DNA from: Euzebya sp.
GTDB lineage: Bacteria; Actinomycetota; Nitriliruptoria; Euzebyales; Euzebyaceae
Reading direction: 5' to 3'
NCBI RefSeq assembly: GCF_964222135.1
Contig: NZ_CAXQBR010000038.1
Location: 1-64,000 of the forward strand
DNA: 64,000 bases
Part shown: positions 2,424-40,757 of the stretch, piece after piece
How the letters are laid out: the number at the start of each line of letters is the position of its first letter
Position numbering within the stretch: position 1 is the first letter of the stretch
Program-made: the position numbers and the translations under genes
The notes under the pieces: generated by a model
Told to the model about the DNA's origin: nothing
Seen by the model: only the letters and a program-made list of their open reading frames with translations
Databases searched by the model: none

Positions 2424-3668
2424 TCAGCGGTCGGGGTGCTGGGGACGCTCGGCCAGGCAGTCGACGTACAGGGCATCCCGCAGGGCGAGCTCCCGCGGGT
2501 CGTCCCACAGGTGGAAGCCCGAGCGGTTCGGCGCGTAGCAGAACCCGATGCCGACGTCCGGGTCGGCGAAGCCGAACGAGCCGCCCGCACCGGGCGTGCC
2601 GAAGGCCGCGTCCGCGGCGGTGCCGAAGCGGAAGCGGGGGAACGGCTTGATGTAGCCGAGGCTGAACGTGGTCTCGACCTTCAGGATCTCGTCCTCGAGC
2701 CCCTCCGCGGGTGGGGTGGCGGGATCGCGGAGGGCGGACAGGGTCGCCTCGTCGAGGCCGAGGCACTGGTCGCCGGTCGCGAACTCCCCGTACGCCCGGG
2801 CGACGTCGCGGACCCGTCCGGTGCCGTTCGCGGCGGGGATCTCGGCGCGGAGGATGTCGATGCGGTTGTAGCTGGCGAGCTCCGCCAGCACCGCCGGGTT
2901 CGCGAAGGACCGTGCGGTCGCGCTGCGCGGGTTGAGGAACGCGGCCACGAACCGCCAGGGCAGCTCGTGGACGTGCAGGACCATCTCCGCCGGCTTGTAG
3001 CCGTGGATGAACGCGAGCCGGCCCACATCGACGTCGTCGGGCAGGCCGATGTGGACGTCGAGGTCCAGAGGGCGGGCGATCTCCTCGGCGAAGAACCGGC
3101 CGAGGGACCGGCCGTCGGGGTCCACGCGTCGGATCAGCTCGCCCTCGTACCAGCCGAGGGTGATGCCGTGGTACCCGTGGCGGGTCCCCGGCTGCCAGGC
3201 GGGGGCCTGGGCCGCGATGACGGCGGCCATGCGGTCGAGGTCGAGCAGGTCGTCCACGTCGAGGGGGCTGTCGATGACGGCGAGGCCCGCCTGGTGGCTG
3301 AGGAGCTGGCGCACGGTCACCGCGTCCTTGCCCGCCGCGGCGAACTCCGGCCAGTACCGGGCCACGGGGGCGTCGTAGTCGACCAGCCCGCGGGCGTGGG
3401 CCAGCGCGACGGCCATCGACGCGACGCCCTTGGTCGTCGAGAACATCGTGACGAGGGTGTCCTCGGCCCACGGCAGCCGGCGGTGGCCGTCGCGGTAGCC
3501 GCCCCACAGGTCGACGACGACCTCGCCGTCGCGGACGACCGCGCACGCGGCCCCCACCTCACCGCGGTCGCGGACGTTGCGGCGGAACGCGTCGGCCACC
3601 GGGCCGTAGCCCTCGGCCACGTCGCCCTGCACCTCGAGCTCGGTCGGCACGTCGATCGAGAACACCAC
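2424..3668 (-). CDS. Serine beta-lactamase-fold hydrolase/esterase (PF00144)
   Basis: A 414-residue class C beta-lactamase/EstB-like serine hydrolase. The nucleophile motif SxxK is at residues 77-80 (STTK), and the second active-site tyrosine is in the GYHGITLGW segment. No signal peptide is visible, so it probably acts in the cytoplasm on esters or peptides rather than as a secreted antibiotic-resistance enzyme; this is inference from the subfamily. The start is GTG at 3668, which has an AGGAGGGAG ribosome site 6 bases upstream. It converges on the SpoIIE-phosphatase gene, with only 3 bases between the stops. Confidence 0.85.
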   Translation of the reverse strand: MVFSIDVPTELEVQGDVAEGYGPVADAFRRNVRDRGEVGAACAVVRDGEVVVDLWGGYRDGHRRLPWAEDTLVTMFSTTKGVASMAVALAHARGLVDYDAPVARYWPEFAAAGKDAVTVRQLLSHQAGLAVIDSPLDVDDLLDLDRMAAVIAAQAPAWQPGTRHGYHGITLGWYEGELIRRVDPDGRSLGRFFAEEIARPLDLDVHIGLPDDVDVGRLAFIHGYKPAEMVLHVHELPWRFVAAFLNPRSATARSFANPAVLAELASYNRIDILRAEIPAANGTGRVRDVARAYGEFATGDQCLGLDEATLSALRDPATPPAEGLEDEILKVETTFSLGYIKPFPRFRFGTAADAAFGTPGAGGSFGFADPDVGIGFCYAPNRSGFHLWDDPRELALRDALYVDCLAERPQHPDR

Positions 3669-6714: not shown

Positions 6715-6878
6715 GTGGGTGCGGTTCCCGCTCGCGGCGGCGGGCGGTGCACCCGCTGCGAGGCGCGGCGACTGCGTGGGTGCGGTTCCCGCTCGCACCG
6801 GCGGGCGGTGCACCCACTGCGAGGTGCGGCGACTGCGTGGGTGCGGTTCCCGCTCGCAGCGGCGGGCGGTGCACCCAC
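6715..6878. repeat. 61-bp tandem palindromic repeat, 2.7 copies
   Basis: Units begin at 6715, 6776 and 6837, with a period of exactly 61 bases; the last is cut after 42 bases. Each unit opens with GTGGGTGCGGTTCCCGCTCG and contains GTGGGTGC facing GCACCC(A/G)C about 26 bases later, with a nested CCCGC/GCGGG, so each can fold into a long hairpin. Units differ at only a few positions. The array fills the gap between two converging genes and may act as a bidirectional terminator or REP-like element. Confidence 0.85.
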
Positions 6879-6908
6879 CTGGTGGTCAAGCGACCGACCC
6901 CAAGCGAC

Positions 6909-31928: not shown

Positions 31929-34211
31929 TCAGCCGGCGGCGGTGACCTCCGGGAACGGCCAGCCGTTGGCCCGACAGGCCCCCAGCCCGCCGGTCTGCTG
32001 CATCATGACCGGCGCGAGCGCGCCGGCGGTGGTGCAGTACTCGTGGCCGTGCCCGAGCCCGTGGCCCACCTCGTGGTTGACGAGGTACTCGCGGTAGACG
32101 CCCAGGTCGGCGTGGAACGGCGGCACCCCGACGGTCCAGCGGTCGAGGTTCAGCATCGCCCGGTACCCGTCCCAGCACGACACCCGCCCGCCGGTCCGCA
32201 GGCCCACCCGGCCGCAGAGGTCGTCGACGGTGGCCGGGCGGGCCACCACCACGCGGATGCGGGCGAGCTGGGACAGGCCGACCCGGCGCCACGCGATCCC
32301 GCCCTCCGCCCCGCCGGGTGTGGTCATCCCGTCGGCGGTCCACGACCGCGGGTCGGTGAGGATGGCGGTCACCTCCGCCTCCACGGCCGCCACGTCGAGA
32401 CCGGTCTCCGGCTCGACCTCCACGGAGTAGGTCACCACCCGCCCCTCGCCGACCTGCGCGTCGCTGCCGCCGGCGACCACCCAGCCCTCGGGCGAGACCG
32501 TGTCGGAGGGGTCGAGCCCGACGACGGACTCGAACCGCTGGTGGCGGGTCGCGGCCCGCTCACCGGTCCCGGTCGTGATCGCGGTGGTGATGACCACCGG
32601 GACCGGGGCGTCGCGCCCGCCGGGTTCGAGGGGGAGGGGGAGGGGTGGACGGTCCCCGCCCCGCCAGGTCACGCGACGTCCGTCGACGCGGGTCGTGCCC
32701 GGCCACTCGTAGCCGTGCAGCGAGACGTGGACCACCGCGTCGGTGACGGCCTCGGCGGCGGTGACGGTCGCCGACAGGCCCTCACGCGCGTCGAGCAGGG
32801 CCTCGACCGCCGGTGCGCCCTGGCCGTCGAACCACGCGCGCCGCAGGTCCGTCGCCAGGTCGTCGACGTGCCCGGTGATGGCCCGGCCCGCGGGGTCGAT
32901 CAGCGGGACGACGGGGTCGGCGGCGACCGCGTCGACGTCGAGAGCCGGCGTCGTCGCGAGCGACGGCAGCAGCGGGTCGTCGACCGGGCCGGCGACCTCC
33001 GGCGGGGCGGTCGGCGTCACCACGGTCACCCGCTCCGGCCGCGTCCGGGCCACCCACTCCGCGGCGGCCGCGGCGCCGATGAGGACCGGCCGGTCGGCGT
33101 CCGCGGCGGCGGCCCCCACGACCGCTCGACCGCGGTCGGCGGTGTCGGCCACCACGACCGCCTCCTGGGCGGCCGGGGGTGCCAGGTCGTCGTCGCTCGC
33201 CACCGCGCCCTCCGCCATCGCGGCGACGACCCGGTCGCGGCTGGCAGCCGGCAGGTCCGCGGACAGCAGCAGCTGGGGGTGCGCGGCGACCTGCGCGGCC
33301 ACGTCCTCGGGGAGCGGGATGTCCCGGTCTGCATCCACCGGGGCCAGATCCACCAGGGTCAGGTCCGCACCGAGCTCGGCGGCGGCGACCGCACCGGCGA
33401 GGGCCCGGTCGAAGGGTTCGGCTGGTGCGACGACCAGGGTGGGCTTGGCGCCGACCGCGGCGTCGACGTGGGACATGGCCGCGGCGACGGTCGCCGCGGC
33501 GCTGCCGCCGCCGATGCGCTCGGCCGGGCGGCCGGCGGCCGTGAGGTCGGCCATGACGGCGTCCGCGACGCCCTCGGGGCCGCCGAGCACCAGCGGCGTG
33601 CCGGTGGTGGCGTCGATGCGCGCCCACTCCGCGGGTGTGAGGACGTCCTGGCCGACCCCGACCACGACCGCGTCGAGGCGGGCGGCGAGGACGGGCGCGG
33701 CCAGGCCGAGCTCGGGGCGGCCGAGGTCCACCAGCAGCGCCGGGCCGGTGCGCGGCCCGAGCGGGTCGACGCGGACGGCCAGGGCGGTGGCGGGCTCGGA
33801 CGCCTCGGCGACCTCGAGGCCGGACACCACGACCTGCCAGCTCCGCAGCGGTCCGTGGTCGCCGACCACGGCCTCGATCCGGTGGATGCCGGGCGGGAGG
33901 GTGACCTCGACGCCAACCAGGCCGCTCAGGTCACCGTCGGGGTCGACCGGGCGGCCGACCGCAGGCTCGCCGTCCACGAGGAAAGCGAGCTCGGCCGGGT
34001 CCGCACCGTCCACCCGGGCGGCGATCACCACCGGGCCGGCCTCGACGACCGCGCCGGGTGCCGGCAGCGGGTCGGACACCGCCGGCGGGTCCGCGATCTC
34101 GACGCGCTGACCGGCCCGGGCTGGCGGCAGCAGCATGGCGACGGACAGGCACGCCAGGGCGCAGGCGAGCGCCAACCGGGCGCGGCGACGGCGGGGAAGA
34201 GCGGTCGACAC
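31929..34211 (-). CDS. Secreted DUF3152 metzincin-like zinc peptidase
   Basis: A 760-residue exported protein with a signal peptide (ARLALACALACLSVAMLLPPARAG). The middle has degenerate CW_binding_2-like stretches (TPLVLGGPEGVADAVMADLTAAG). The C-terminal 190 residues form the DUF3152 domain with HEVGHGLGHGH at 713-723, an HExxHxxGxxH zinc site, and PVMMQQ as likely Met-turn; CRVGL-type and SCWDG segments are also present. The start used is GTG 34211, where a signal peptide begins; GTG 34229 adds six residues. It is a tandem paralogue of the next gene. Protease activity is inferred from the motif. Confidence 0.85.
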   Translation of the reverse strand: MSTALPRRRRARLALACALACLSVAMLLPPARAGQRVEIADPPAVSDPLPAPGAVVEAGPVVIAARVDGADPAELAFLVDGEPAVGRPVDPDGDLSGLVGVEVTLPPGIHRIEAVVGDHGPLRSWQVVVSGLEVAEASEPATALAVRVDPLGPRTGPALLVDLGRPELGLAAPVLAARLDAVVVGVGQDVLTPAEWARIDATTGTPLVLGGPEGVADAVMADLTAAGRPAERIGGGSAAATVAAAMSHVDAAVGAKPTLVVAPAEPFDRALAGAVAAAELGADLTLVDLAPVDADRDIPLPEDVAAQVAAHPQLLLSADLPAASRDRVVAAMAEGAVASDDDLAPPAAQEAVVVADTADRGRAVVGAAAADADRPVLIGAAAAAEWVARTRPERVTVVTPTAPPEVAGPVDDPLLPSLATTPALDVDAVAADPVVPLIDPAGRAITGHVDDLATDLRRAWFDGQGAPAVEALLDAREGLSATVTAAEAVTDAVVHVSLHGYEWPGTTRVDGRRVTWRGGDRPPLPLPLEPGGRDAPVPVVITTAITTGTGERAATRHQRFESVVGLDPSDTVSPEGWVVAGGSDAQVGEGRVVTYSVEVEPETGLDVAAVEAEVTAILTDPRSWTADGMTTPGGAEGGIAWRRVGLSQLARIRVVVARPATVDDLCGRVGLRTGGRVSCWDGYRAMLNLDRWTVGVPPFHADLGVYREYLVNHEVGHGLGHGHEYCTTAGALAPVMMQQTGGLGACRANGWPFPEVTAAG

Positions 34212-34398: not shown

Positions 34399-36441
34399 TC
34401 AGCCGTGCGGGTACGGCCAGCCGTTGGCGACGCAGCCGCCGAGGCCCTTGGACTGCTGCATCATCACCGGGGCGATCTGGCCCCGTCCCGGGCAGGAGAC
34501 GTGGCCGAAGCCGAGGCCGTGGCCGACCTCGTGGCTGACGAGGTACTGGCGGTAGACGGTCAGGTCGGTGTGGAACGGCGCGACGCCGGTGTTCCAGCGC
34601 GTGAGGTTGAGCATGGTGCGACGGCCGTCCCAGCAGGACAGCCGACCGCCGGTGTCGAGGCCGACCCGGCGGCAGTAGGCGTCGACCGTGCTCGGCGGGG
34701 CGATGACGACGCGGATGCCCGCCTGCCCCGACGTCCCGACCCGCTGGAGGGACCGGGCCCCCCTGGCCGTCCACCCGCGGGTGGGGTCGAGCAGGATCGA
34801 CTCGACCTCCGCGGTGACCGCCGACAGGTCGAGCCCGGTGCCCGGCGCGAGCTCGACGCTGAAGGTGCGCAGCGGTCCGGACCCCACCACCGCGCTCTGG
34901 CCGCCGGCGACCGTGAACCCCTCGGGTGAGGTGGAGGTCAGCGGCGCGATGGCCGCGGTCCCGTCGGCGGCGACGTGGCGCAGGTGTCCCCGGGCGGCCA
35001 CGGCCGCGGTGATCGCCAGCGGGGCGGACGTCGGGGCCGACGGCTCGAGACCCGGGGGGAGGCTGGGCCGCGGACCGGCGGTCCAGACCACGCGGTCCCC
35101 CTCGATGGCGGTCCGACCGTCCCACTCCACCCCGTGGACCGTGACGTGGACCGCGGCGCCGTCCACCGGCCGGTCGGCCTGCAGCACGACCGTGGGGTCC
35201 GCCGGGTCGACCGACGCGGTCACCGCAGGTGCGTCGGGCCCGTCGACCCACCACGCCCGCACCACCTCGGGGGCGACCTGCCCGACCGCGCTGACCGCTG
35301 CCGGCCGCGACCGGGCCACCCGGTCGGCGGCGTCCCCGGCGGTGACGGCGACGTCGGCGTGCACCGCGGCACGGGCGACGAGGGCGGCGAGGCCCGGTGC
35401 GACGTCGCCGTCGACCACCCAGAGCGGGCGGACGGCGGTCGGAGCGCCATCCAGGCCCCCGGCCGGGAGGTCGCCGACCGTCGCGTCGACCGCGGCCGCG
35501 CGGACCGCGTCGACGACGTCGGCGGTCAGGCCGGGACCCAGCAGCACCTCGGCCCGCCCCGCCAGGGCGTCCCGGGCCTGCGGCGGCAGGCCGTCGGCGT
35601 CGGCGAGGACCAGCGCGGCGCCCCGCGCGGTCGCGGCGACCGCCGCGCGCAGGGCCCCGGTCAGCGGCTCGGCCGGCGCGACCACGGCTGGTGCCGGGAC
35701 GGCCCTGCCGTCGCGGCTGTAGACCCGCGCGGCCCGGACCCGGTCCGCGGCGGCGGCTGCCCCCTCTGCGGCGGTCCCGCTGCCGACCCGCTCGACGACC
35801 CACCCCGCGTCGGCCAGCGCCGTGGTCACGTCCGGTCCGACGGCGTCCAGGCCGCCCAGGACGACCACGGGGTCGCCGGGCCCGCGGACCTCGGCGATCG
35901 CCGCGACGGTCGCCTCGGGCATGTCGGCCTGGCCGGTCGGCAGCACGAGCGCGCCGAGGGCGGCGCCGAGCGGGCCGGCAGACAGCGCCAGCTCGGGTCG
36001 TCCGGGGTTCACCAGCAGGACCGGACGGGCCGGCCCGCCAGAACCGGACGCCTGCCGCGCGACCACGAGGGGGTCGTCGCCGACCGGCGCCACCCGGACC
36101 CCCGCGGCGTGGACCGGCCAGCTGCGCGCGACCACGCCGTCGACGACGACCGCCAGGGTGTGCGGACCGGGCGCCAGGTCGACCGGGGTCCCCAGCGGGC
36201 CCACGTCGACGCCGTCCACCTGCACCGAGGACGTCTGGCCGCCTCGCACGTCGGCGGACACCGCGGTGGGCCCCGCCTCCACCACCGCGTGGGGTGGCGG
36301 GTGGGGGGAGCGGACCGCCACGGCCTGGTGGTACCCGCCCGTGGGCGCCGCCGTCCGGCCGACGGCGGGGACGGTGGGGAGGGCGAGGGCCGCGACGGCG
36401 AGCAGTGCGGTCGCGGCGTGGCGGAGCGGACGGGCGCGCAT
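34399..36441 (-). CDS. Secreted DUF3152 metzincin-like zinc peptidase, paralogue
   Basis: A 680-residue exported protein with the same plan as its downstream neighbour: signal peptide (RHAATALLAVAALALPTVPAVG), pseudo-repeat middle (DPVVVLGGLDAVGPDVTTALADAG), then a DUF3152 domain with HEVGHGLGFGH at 637-647 and PVMMQQSKGLGGC. The last 200 residues of the two proteins are very alike, whereas the middles have diverged, so they come from an old tandem duplication. The 187-base gap between them holds an inverted repeat GATGTGCA/TGCACATC (34317-34356). ATG 36441 is the only good start before the signal peptide. Confidence 0.87.
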   Translation of the reverse strand: MRARPLRHAATALLAVAALALPTVPAVGRTAAPTGGYHQAVAVRSPHPPPHAVVEAGPTAVSADVRGGQTSSVQVDGVDVGPLGTPVDLAPGPHTLAVVVDGVVARSWPVHAAGVRVAPVGDDPLVVARQASGSGGPARPVLLVNPGRPELALSAGPLGAALGALVLPTGQADMPEATVAAIAEVRGPGDPVVVLGGLDAVGPDVTTALADAGWVVERVGSGTAAEGAAAAADRVRAARVYSRDGRAVPAPAVVAPAEPLTGALRAAVAATARGAALVLADADGLPPQARDALAGRAEVLLGPGLTADVVDAVRAAAVDATVGDLPAGGLDGAPTAVRPLWVVDGDVAPGLAALVARAAVHADVAVTAGDAADRVARSRPAAVSAVGQVAPEVVRAWWVDGPDAPAVTASVDPADPTVVLQADRPVDGAAVHVTVHGVEWDGRTAIEGDRVVWTAGPRPSLPPGLEPSAPTSAPLAITAAVAARGHLRHVAADGTAAIAPLTSTSPEGFTVAGGQSAVVGSGPLRTFSVELAPGTGLDLSAVTAEVESILLDPTRGWTARGARSLQRVGTSGQAGIRVVIAPPSTVDAYCRRVGLDTGGRLSCWDGRRTMLNLTRWNTGVAPFHTDLTVYRQYLVSHEVGHGLGFGHVSCPGRGQIAPVMMQQSKGLGGCVANGWPYPHG

Positions 36442-38927: not shown

Positions 38928-39947
38928 TCAGGACCGGCTGACGGCCCAGAGCGAGCCGCTGCCCTCGCTGGCGGTCACGTAGGAGCGGCCGTCGGGGAGG
39001 TAGGCGACGGCCTCGCCCTGCCCCTCGGGTGCGGCGGGGAGCTCTGCGGCGGTCCAGGCGGCCAGGTCGCTGAGGGGTGCGCCGGGGGAGGGGGCGGTCA
39101 GCTCGACGACGCTGTCGTAGGTGCGCAGCAGGACGCGGGAGCCGTCGTGGCTCGCGTCGGCGCCGGTGACGGACAGGCCGACGAACCCGGTCAGCAGCGG
39201 ACTCGACGGCTGGGGGACCGGCATCTGCCCGGTCTGGACCAGCGCGCCGTCGGCGAAGGCGGTGGCGGCCATGACCCGCGTCGTCCCCTCCTCCTTCGTC
39301 AGCACGATCGGCAGGCCGTCCGCGCCCACGACCAGCGCCTCGGCGTCGACCGGGCCGGAGGGGTAGGTGTAGCGGGCGGTCGTCGCGACGGCGGTCGTGT
39401 CGCCCGGCGCGGGCTCGCCGATCCGGTGGATCGCGATCGCCTCCCGGCCCGCGACGTTGTCGCCGATGTCGGCCAGGTAGAGGCAGGGGGAGGGATCGCC
39501 GGCCCCGCACGGACCGGCGGCGAGGTCCTCCAGGTTCACCGCGTCCAGGCCGTCGACGGTGACCTCGGCGGCCGTCGTGCCGTCGTGGCGCACCCCGATC
39601 ACCTGCGACGTCCCGGTGGCGTCGTCGACCAGCCACAGCAGGTCGGGCTCGCGCCGGCTGGCGGCGATCCCGCTGACCTCGGGCGCGAGGCCGACGTCGA
39701 AGCTGCCGAGCAGCTCGGGGGCCCCGGGCTCGCCCGGCGTCGCGGGTGTCGCGGGTGTTGAAGGGGTCGCCGGAGGGGTCGGAGGGGTGGACGGGGCGGC
39801 CGCCGTCGTCGACGCGGCAACCGGCGCAGGCCGCGCGGTCGCGTGCGGGTCCAGCCCCTCCACCCCAGGCGAACAGCCCGCCAGGACGAGTGCGAGCACC
39901 AGCGCCAGGACCATCCGGCACGGGACGGGCGCGGTGGGCGGACGCAT
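38928..39947 (-). CDS. Predicted lipoprotein with propeller-like domain
   Basis: A 339-residue protein beginning with a lipoprotein signal (VLALVLALVLAGC, lipobox LAGC), a Pro/Thr/Ala-rich linker of about 50 residues and a propeller-like region (LGSFDVGLAPEVSGIAASR, LEDLAAGPCGAGDPSPCLYLADIGDN, EGQGEAVAYLPDGRSYVTASEG). It is expected to be tethered to the outer membrane face. No enzymatic motif was found. The start is ATG 39947, with TACGCT 6 bases before it. Confidence 0.78.
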   Translation of the reverse strand: MRPPTAPVPCRMVLALVLALVLAGCSPGVEGLDPHATARPAPVAASTTAAAPSTPPTPPATPSTPATPATPGEPGAPELLGSFDVGLAPEVSGIAASRREPDLLWLVDDATGTSQVIGVRHDGTTAAEVTVDGLDAVNLEDLAAGPCGAGDPSPCLYLADIGDNVAGREAIAIHRIGEPAPGDTTAVATTARYTYPSGPVDAEALVVGADGLPIVLTKEEGTTRVMAATAFADGALVQTGQMPVPQPSSPLLTGFVGLSVTGADASHDGSRVLLRTYDSVVELTAPSPGAPLSDLAAWTAAELPAAPEGQGEAVAYLPDGRSYVTASEGSGSLWAVSRS

Positions 39948-40011: not shown

Positions 40012-40340
40012 CACCACGGATCAACCACAACAGAGGTCCAGATGGCCCTCCGTGGTGGTCGATCCGTGCGCCGGTCCCCGCGACCCGCCGGATGCAATCG
40101 ACATCCTCTGGGCCCGCGGGGGTGGTGTCCGTGGATGGATTTGACACCGTTGCGGCATCGACTCCACCGGCAGGTGGGGTTCAGGTGGCTCGAATGGTCC
40201 AGAGGGGCTGGAGGGACTGGTGGGGTCGTGGGACGGTGTCGAATCCATCCCGTGGGGGGTCGGTCACGGTGTCGAATCCATCCCGGCGGGACCGACCGCG
40301 CGCGGTTCGCGGACCGCACGGCCTGTGGTCGATCCGTGCG
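40012..40340. repeat. Intergenic cluster of related short motifs, no gene
   Basis: The 414 bases between 39948 and 40361 contain no supportable gene. They hold repeated words: ACGGTGTCGAATCCATCCCG at 40233-40252 and 40266-40285 (identical), an inverted near-copy at 40131-40150, GTGGTCGATCCGTGCG at 40055-40070 and 40325-40340 (identical), an inverted near-copy at 40012-40028, and a looser inverted copy at 40090-40106. All share a GTCGA(A)TCC core. They lie between two divergent genes and look like clustered protein-binding sites. Confidence 0.7.
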
Positions 40341-40361: not shown

Positions 40362-40757
40362 ATGGCGCACCCACCCGCAGACGTCCCCGGCGGCCCGCTC
40401 GACGACCAGCTCGGCGACCCCCGCGTGGTCCACGCGATCGGGGCGGAGGAGTGGGCGGCCGCGGGGGAGGCGGTGCGGCCGCCGTCGCTCGAGAGCGAGG
40501 GGTTCATCCACCTCTCCACCCCCTCCCAGATCGCGTGGGTCTGCGACCAGCGCTACGCGGACCGCGACGACCTCGTGCTCCTGGTCGTGCACCCCGACGA
40601 CCTGCCGATCGACCTGGTCTGGGAGGACTGCGAGGAGGTCGGCCAGGACTTCCCGCACCTGTACGCGCCCCTCCCGCGGACGGCGGTCCAGGCGGTGCTC
40701 GACTACCGCCCCGGCCCCGACGGGCGGTACCCGCCACCGGAGCTGCCGACGCGCTGA
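40362..40757 (+). CDS. DUF952 family protein
   Basis: A 131-residue protein with the DUF952 (PF06108) signatures SEGFIHLSTPSQIA near residue 45 and FPHLYAPLPRTAV near residue 100. The fold resembles small ADP-ribosyl-transferase-like proteins, but the biochemical role is unknown. It starts at ATG 40362 with only a weak ribosome site. It precedes the helicase gene by 55 bases; the helicase seems to have its own -10 box. Confidence 0.82.
   Translation: MAHPPADVPGGPLDDQLGDPRVVHAIGAEEWAAAGEAVRPPSLESEGFIHLSTPSQIAWVCDQRYADRDDLVLLVVHPDDLPIDLVWEDCEEVGQDFPHLYAPLPRTAVQAVLDYRPGPDGRYPPPELPTR

Follow-up and report, generated by a model that had tools for sequence, protein, structure and literature searches.

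As described by Bertels and Rainey 2011 (PMC3116915), RAYTs are IS200-like tyrosine transposases encoded by single-copy, mutually distinct genes that each adjoin their own repeat family, and a REPIN is a hairpin made up of a pair of REPs. The repeat arrays studied here share with this system, as portrayed there, distinct enzyme genes with repeats of their own, dispersed extragenic inverted repeats and several families per genome, but their enzyme appears to be a winged-helix/Vsr-like nuclease rather than a Y1/HUH tyrosine transposase, and they are made up of two to six sites in helical register with unpaired inner sites and unshared spacers. The ends of the transposon Tn7 (TnsA/TnsB) are a case of phased, multi-site transposase binding in which a PD-(D/E)XK nuclease is involved. 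They resemble our arrays in having several same-strand sites per side in opposing orientation and such a nuclease (predicted in our case), but an array here measures only about 60-270 bp and is free of cargo, and instead of lying within an array, the gene has a complete one on either side. With Vsr-like homing endonucleases, among which we count PDB entry 3r3p (presumably I-Bth0305I), the system has in common a weak similarity of the nuclease domain (E 0.43) and a gene placed at its own putative recognition sequence, but it differs by the lack of an intron or intein, by many arrays per genome and by an added AbiEi-like N-terminus.

AbiEi is a family of antitoxins and regulators, and actinobacterial AbiEi_4/DUF559 proteins share domain matches with the array-linked proteins, but a link to dispersed arrays was not found for them in the literature accessible to us. 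More specifically, none of the open-licence PMC papers searched named both DUF559 and AbiEi, the titles and abstract openings of the DUF559 papers among them do not describe such arrays, and no description of nuclease-paired phased arrays was found in the accessible parts of this literature at large. Judging from sequence features, these genes and repeats look like a previously undescribed kind of bacterial gene-plus-repeat system, and we consider it probable that they form a cognate nuclease-array partnership which resembles REPIN/RAYT yet is built from unrelated parts.

Site families in the gap and across the genome

The window, a stretch of 64,000 nucleotides on contig C38 of genome G000 (111 contigs, 5.06 Mb in total), contains a gap between the start of a minus-strand ORF at 39947 and an ATG at 40363 in which a motif scan placed seven sites of two kinds at 40012-40340. 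The initial annotation had reported six or more copies of one shared motif there; its count holds, but the sites split over two families, A (word GATGTCGAWTCCATCC) and B (word GTGGTCGATCCGTGC), which had been merged since both contain TCGA(A)TCC. The two pairs of identical repeats and the inverted near-copies on which it was built were recovered by a repeat search and are non-random genome-wide: ACGGTGTCGAATCCATCCCG occurs at 40233 and 40266, GTGGTCGATCCGTGCG at 40055 and 40325, and inverted near-copies lie at 40133-40150 (94%) and 40015-40029 (93%), with a weaker inverted copy at 40090. Across the whole window, four of five A-like matches (up to three mismatches; shuffle mean 1.67) and all three B matches (up to two mismatches; shuffle mean 0.85) fall into this gap.

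The complete family A array (40090-40283) comprises two minus-strand sites at 40090-40104 (outer left, three mismatches) and 40133-40147 (inner left, one mismatch) followed by two exact plus-strand sites at 40236-40250 (inner right) and 40269-40283 (outer right, 33 bp from the inner site), giving the order --++ with spacings of 43, 102 and 33 bp (16-mers). It is enclosed by family B sites, of which a minus-strand site at 40014-40028 (two mismatches to the B word) and an exact plus-strand site at 40055-40069 stand at the 41 bp typical of most B arrays, and another exact plus-strand site follows at 40325-40339, 270 bp from the second. This outer spacing is 72-74 bp in 11 of 13 other B arrays and 84 bp in the remaining two, and because the A array, with 194 bp between its outer site ends, fills the excess length of the window's B array, A looks as if it had been placed inside B. 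The inverted words CCCGCCGG (40084-40091) and CCGGCGGG (40283-40290) bordering the A array are a possible insertion boundary; by eye, no such borders were seen at other A arrays. We found no relative with the same gap by which to prove an insertion of A, and the right neighbour had no match in G001-G004.

As had been stated, the genes on either side of the gap diverge. The left neighbour (38928-39947, minus strand) is a lipoprotein-like ORF by virtue of a lipobox recognized by eye and has no Pfam match, and the right one (40363-40757, plus strand, 130 aa) lacks any Pfam match at E<=0.001, including the DUF952 to which it had been assigned. Elsewhere in the window, a 61-bp unit is repeated three times in tandem at 6715-6897 (copies 93% and 80% identical to the first), and minus-strand regions at 31950-32285 and 34408-34743, which are 76% identical over 75 and 252 bp, probably represent a duplicated gene that resembles secreted metalloproteases by eye.

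Genome-wide, word A has 86 sites with up to two mismatches, 43 on each strand (none for the reversed control), and word B at least 108 (13 for the reversed control). Fetched clusters amount to 22 A arrays including that of the window, at least 18 B arrays (17 and the window's, among the matches listed) and at least seven arrays of a third family, C, with the word GGAGTCGATCCGTGC; these counts leave out isolated two-mismatch A matches at C7:44086, C49:38377, C50:27585 and C75:82604, many isolated two-mismatch B matches and single C matches at C3:45881 and C45:31273. The annotation had held that dispersal of the word to random sites would speak against its reading; the sites are indeed dispersed, but in ordered arrays rather than at random. 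Arrays span about 60-270 bp and hold two to six sites, with those of one strand facing those of the other. All minus sites lie left of the plus sites in each of the 22 A arrays, 18 of which are exactly --++; B arrays mostly follow the pattern [-]41[+]73[+] or its mirror image; and the inner sites of six out of seven C arrays are 92-93 bp apart, with extra sites 21-75 bp outward. Spacers between sites are mostly unrelated apart from a few short matches and, in six of the seven C arrays, a common central stretch of ca. 28 bp in register, and no common ends beyond the sites were seen among the arrays.

A central core independent of family, TGACCTGC, was considered and rejected as not general, being found with up to one mismatch in the centres of 6/7 C, 5/17 B, 3/13 F, 1/8 E and 4/22 A arrays (for E and F, see below). 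One B array (L089, contig C1 of G000, ca. 2180) lies immediately upstream of what by eye is a tRNA-like start, GGGGGCTGTAGCTCAGT.

Spacings between neighbouring sites on the same strand follow the DNA helix, with R=0.87 at a period of 10.55 bp (n=109, from 67 arrays of five families), a value that none of 2000 random sets reached. When each distinct length is counted once, R is 0.70 at the same period (n=21), a figure in which inheritance cannot inflate the register signal. Opposite-strand spacings cluster at 41-42, 91-93, 101-105 and 113-117 bp and are less clean: they give 0.79 at 10.5 bp, yet the period that fits them best is 12.45 bp, which is why the claim of helical register rests on the same-strand set. 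In REPINs, repeat doublets pair as hairpins; here, by contrast, the two facing inner sites of one array, minus and plus, are no more alike than sites taken across arrays in any of the five families, and shuffled pairings were as alike or more so in 1723 (A), 1944 (B), 2000 (C), 404 (E) and 786 (F) of 2000 cases each. This lack of arm concordance together with the helical spacing fits proteins on double-stranded DNA. The prediction of a multi-site binding array thus gains good support from conserved sites amid unconserved spacers, helical register and the absence of any sign of hairpin pairing.

Genes enclosed by arrays of their own motif

At three places in G000, a single gene is framed by two arrays of the same family (A, B or C) that stand ca. 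1.1-1.3 kb from each other; these three genes are paralogs with 35-38% pairwise identity. A profile of their proteins found five homologs in this genome at E<=1e-5, i.e., the A, B and C proteins themselves, D as a fourth (C55:24645-25643, E 1.6e-87) and, more remote, one encoded on contig C83 (E 2e-7). A fourth motif, GGTGCACCGAGAGTTCGA, is present in inverted copies on both sides of the D gene, and all four close paralogs of G000 therefore sit between arrays of their own motif. A further two B arrays, on contig C62 (5963 and 7030), enclose an ORF that looks unrelated.

Profile comparison suggests that these proteins begin with a winged helix like that of AbiEi and end in a nuclease domain of the Vsr/DUF559 type. 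Among eight family members, Pfam at E<=0.1 detects AbiEi_4 in five and DUF559 in four (best 4.5e-9), and no transposase domain was found by Pfam among the array-linked genes. The B protein scores 35.7 bits for AbiEi_4 (PF13338; cutoff 25) and the A protein 23.5, just below, while the DUF559 matches of both are under the Pfam cutoff and the C protein has no Pfam match at E<=1. Residues E212, D240, E251 and H257 (A-protein numbering), which we take to be those expected of a nuclease-fold active site, are invariant in all eight members, and a profile search of the PDB retrieved the endonuclease-like protein 3hrl with E 0.001 and the mobile intron protein 3r3p with E 0.43.

Homologs of the gene occur in eight of 150 genomes at E<=1e-20 and in eight of 66 genomes of the class at E<=1e-30, G000 included in both cases, and the gene is present in all three same-genus species (G001, G002 and G003). 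There, too, all four genes (one each in G001 and G003 and two in G002) are located between arrays of their own motif. A blind count of repeats in 420-bp flanks gave 5-13 copies for seven of the eight genus-level genes and four for L151; five copies were reached by 2/120 and four by 21/120 random flanks. As with RAYT genes, cognate repeats are thus found beside the enzyme gene at all eight genus-level genes, if weakly at L151. The flank count for L152, whose right flank measures only 170 bp, is an artefact, and the matches at L143 are all direct repeats.

The words themselves are far more restricted than the gene: word A occurs in four of 61 genomes, with one copy in each of the three besides G000, and word B in nine, with one or two copies in each of the eight others, making both essentially private to G000. 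The relatives have motifs of their own, and F, E and a D-type motif are likewise dispersed, chiefly in those genomes. Motif F (GAGGCGAWTCCGTCG) has 36 matches in G003, 10 in G001, three in G002 and two in G000, with four matches of altered core in G001/G003 left out of the fetched arrays; motif E has 12 in G001 and four in G003; and a D-type motif has 28 in G002 and nine in G000 and is missing from G001 and G003. Across eight proteins, the correlation of protein and motif similarity is weak (Mantel rho 0.32, p 0.068; 0.38, p 0.022 for the N-terminus).

Five more distant homologs were also inspected, of which four have nothing clear in their surroundings. The fifth, L147 from another family of the order (G015), lies between identical 47-bp inverted repeats at 1411-1457 and 2478-2524 (GCAGCGCGGACA ... 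TGTCCGCGCT), a two-sided arrangement which suggests that the placement of the gene between repeats may reach beyond the genus. The homolog of G006 (L150/L188) has one in-frame TGA within its reading frame and is perhaps a decaying gene.

Array positions and motif switching among relatives

Array positions persist between species even where the motif changes. Nine of the 13 G001 loci that were fetched share their gap with an array or gene locus of G003; four of these gaps hold F in both species, two hold E in both, and three hold different motifs (L175/L157, L176/L167 and the gene locus L181/L184). At L181/L184, the flanks are 94.8% and 86.7% identical, but the nuclease gene between them only 67% at the DNA and 63% at the protein level, and the arrays carry different words. 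Likewise, at three of 41 G000 loci, the corresponding gap in G001 or G003 contains arrays of a different motif, with both flanks matching at L083 (A opposite F) and at L093 (B array, gene and B array opposite F) and a single flank at L104 (C opposite F); for the other 38, including that of the window, there was no shared gap among the 30 loci of G001/G003 compared. Orthologous F arrays have kept their sites and in some cases also a central GCAGGTCAG stretch, while their spacers differ. At L179 (G001, contig C13, 2912-3240), an E array stands beside an F array, which makes this a second gap with two families. A different kind of repetition is seen at L175 (G001, contig C6, ca. 3064-3180), where the E array has next to it a repeated 36-bp unit that includes one half of an E site.

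Interpretation of the arrays and their proposed partner proteins

In our favoured reading, each array in the window would be non-coding DNA that serves as the binding platform of one particular winged-helix/nuclease protein, drawn from a sequence-specific family with a predicted Vsr/DUF559-like PD-(D/E)XK fold whose members would read a site of roughly 15 bp. Several molecules would bind cooperatively, in helical register and opposing orientation, and hold the array looped or wrapped. One enzyme would thereby go with a population of cognate repeats, its gene flanked on both sides by arrays of the matching motif and many further arrays, lacking the gene, scattered over intergenic positions; it might also cleave DNA, and arrays might spread by nuclease-driven insertion or repair. 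Enzyme and motif would be replaced jointly, whereas the places occupied by arrays tend to be kept.

As to its purpose, such a partnership might replicate in the manner of REPINs or might serve the host as an architectural system, and the arrays may or may not be mobile. Similar spacers are nearly absent, which argues against the recent copying expected of purely mobile elements and speaks for arrays that have been maintained over long times; turnover by competing families is favoured by motif switching and by the apparent nesting of A in B. Tentatively, we entertain the idea of an intragenomic replicator, or a semi-domesticated system, that belongs to a new class: each nuclease would have a private array population and new families would colonise the gaps of older arrays, such that specificity and many sites are replaced together and positions are kept. 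The colonisation part of this proposal builds on A inside B in the window and on E, F, A, B and C meeting at shared gaps.

Alternatively, the proteins might be domesticated nucleoid or regulatory proteins whose arrays are selected for insulating gene 3' ends, for looping or for supercoil control, a possibility on the doubtful side that draws support from sites kept amid diverging spacers (orthologous arrays included), from positions persisting between species and from helically phased same-strand spacings. It would also suit a preference for 3' ends, since arrays are faced by 76 of these and by 52 5' ends. Harder to reconcile with a host role are the switching of motif families between sister species at the same gaps, a gene of only 67% DNA identity between flanks of 95% and 87% at the E/F locus, and nuclease-signature residues that are invariant in 8/8 proteins. 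Furthermore, the neighbouring genes have no function in common, as no Pfam family recurs in more than two of 60 neighbours (60 examined of 83), and a regulon was rejected on the grounds that neighbours lack a common family.

It is improbable that the array regulates its two flanking genes or serves as a partition site, both of which the annotation had proposed and which a multi-site array in a divergent gap would seem to invite. Arrays of the same families recur in over 40 further gaps whose neighbouring genes are unrelated, and among 61 arrays with both neighbours scored, divergent promoter gaps are avoided and form the rarest class (5, compared to 17 convergent and 39 tandem gaps; genes were called by a GC3 heuristic, which scored the window as '++' though it is divergent). 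A parS-like partition system, in which ParB binds a few sites clustered around oriC, is further at odds with A and B sites dispersed over many contigs in several families of arrays and with a partner that is predicted to be a winged-helix/nuclease protein.

Ordinary MITEs moved by a conventional transposase would likewise be dispersed, intergenic and inverted, and could land inside one another as A seems to have done in B, but their copies are alike along their length and have defined ends. We rate them as very improbable given that sites alone are shared, with mostly unrelated spacers and no common ends seen beyond the sites, that array lengths vary in helical steps and that Pfam does not identify the linked gene as a transposase. 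Inverted sites near gene 3' ends might suggest RNA hairpins or transcription terminators, but these can practically be set aside with inner inverted sites lacking concordance in all five families, spacing that tracks the double helix and up to six sites per array.

AbiEi_4/DUF559 proteins are known by sequence, and a comparable role was not found described in the literature accessible to us; the present analysis connects some of them, in four species, with a DNA target that is defined and can be tested. If the proposed partnership holds, the problem of one enzyme and a population of repeats that is known from REPIN/RAYT would have been solved a second time, by unrelated means. It would also provide natural pairs of protein and site with fast-changing specificity, which may be useful for understanding how winged helices recognize DNA and how a number of sites can change together.
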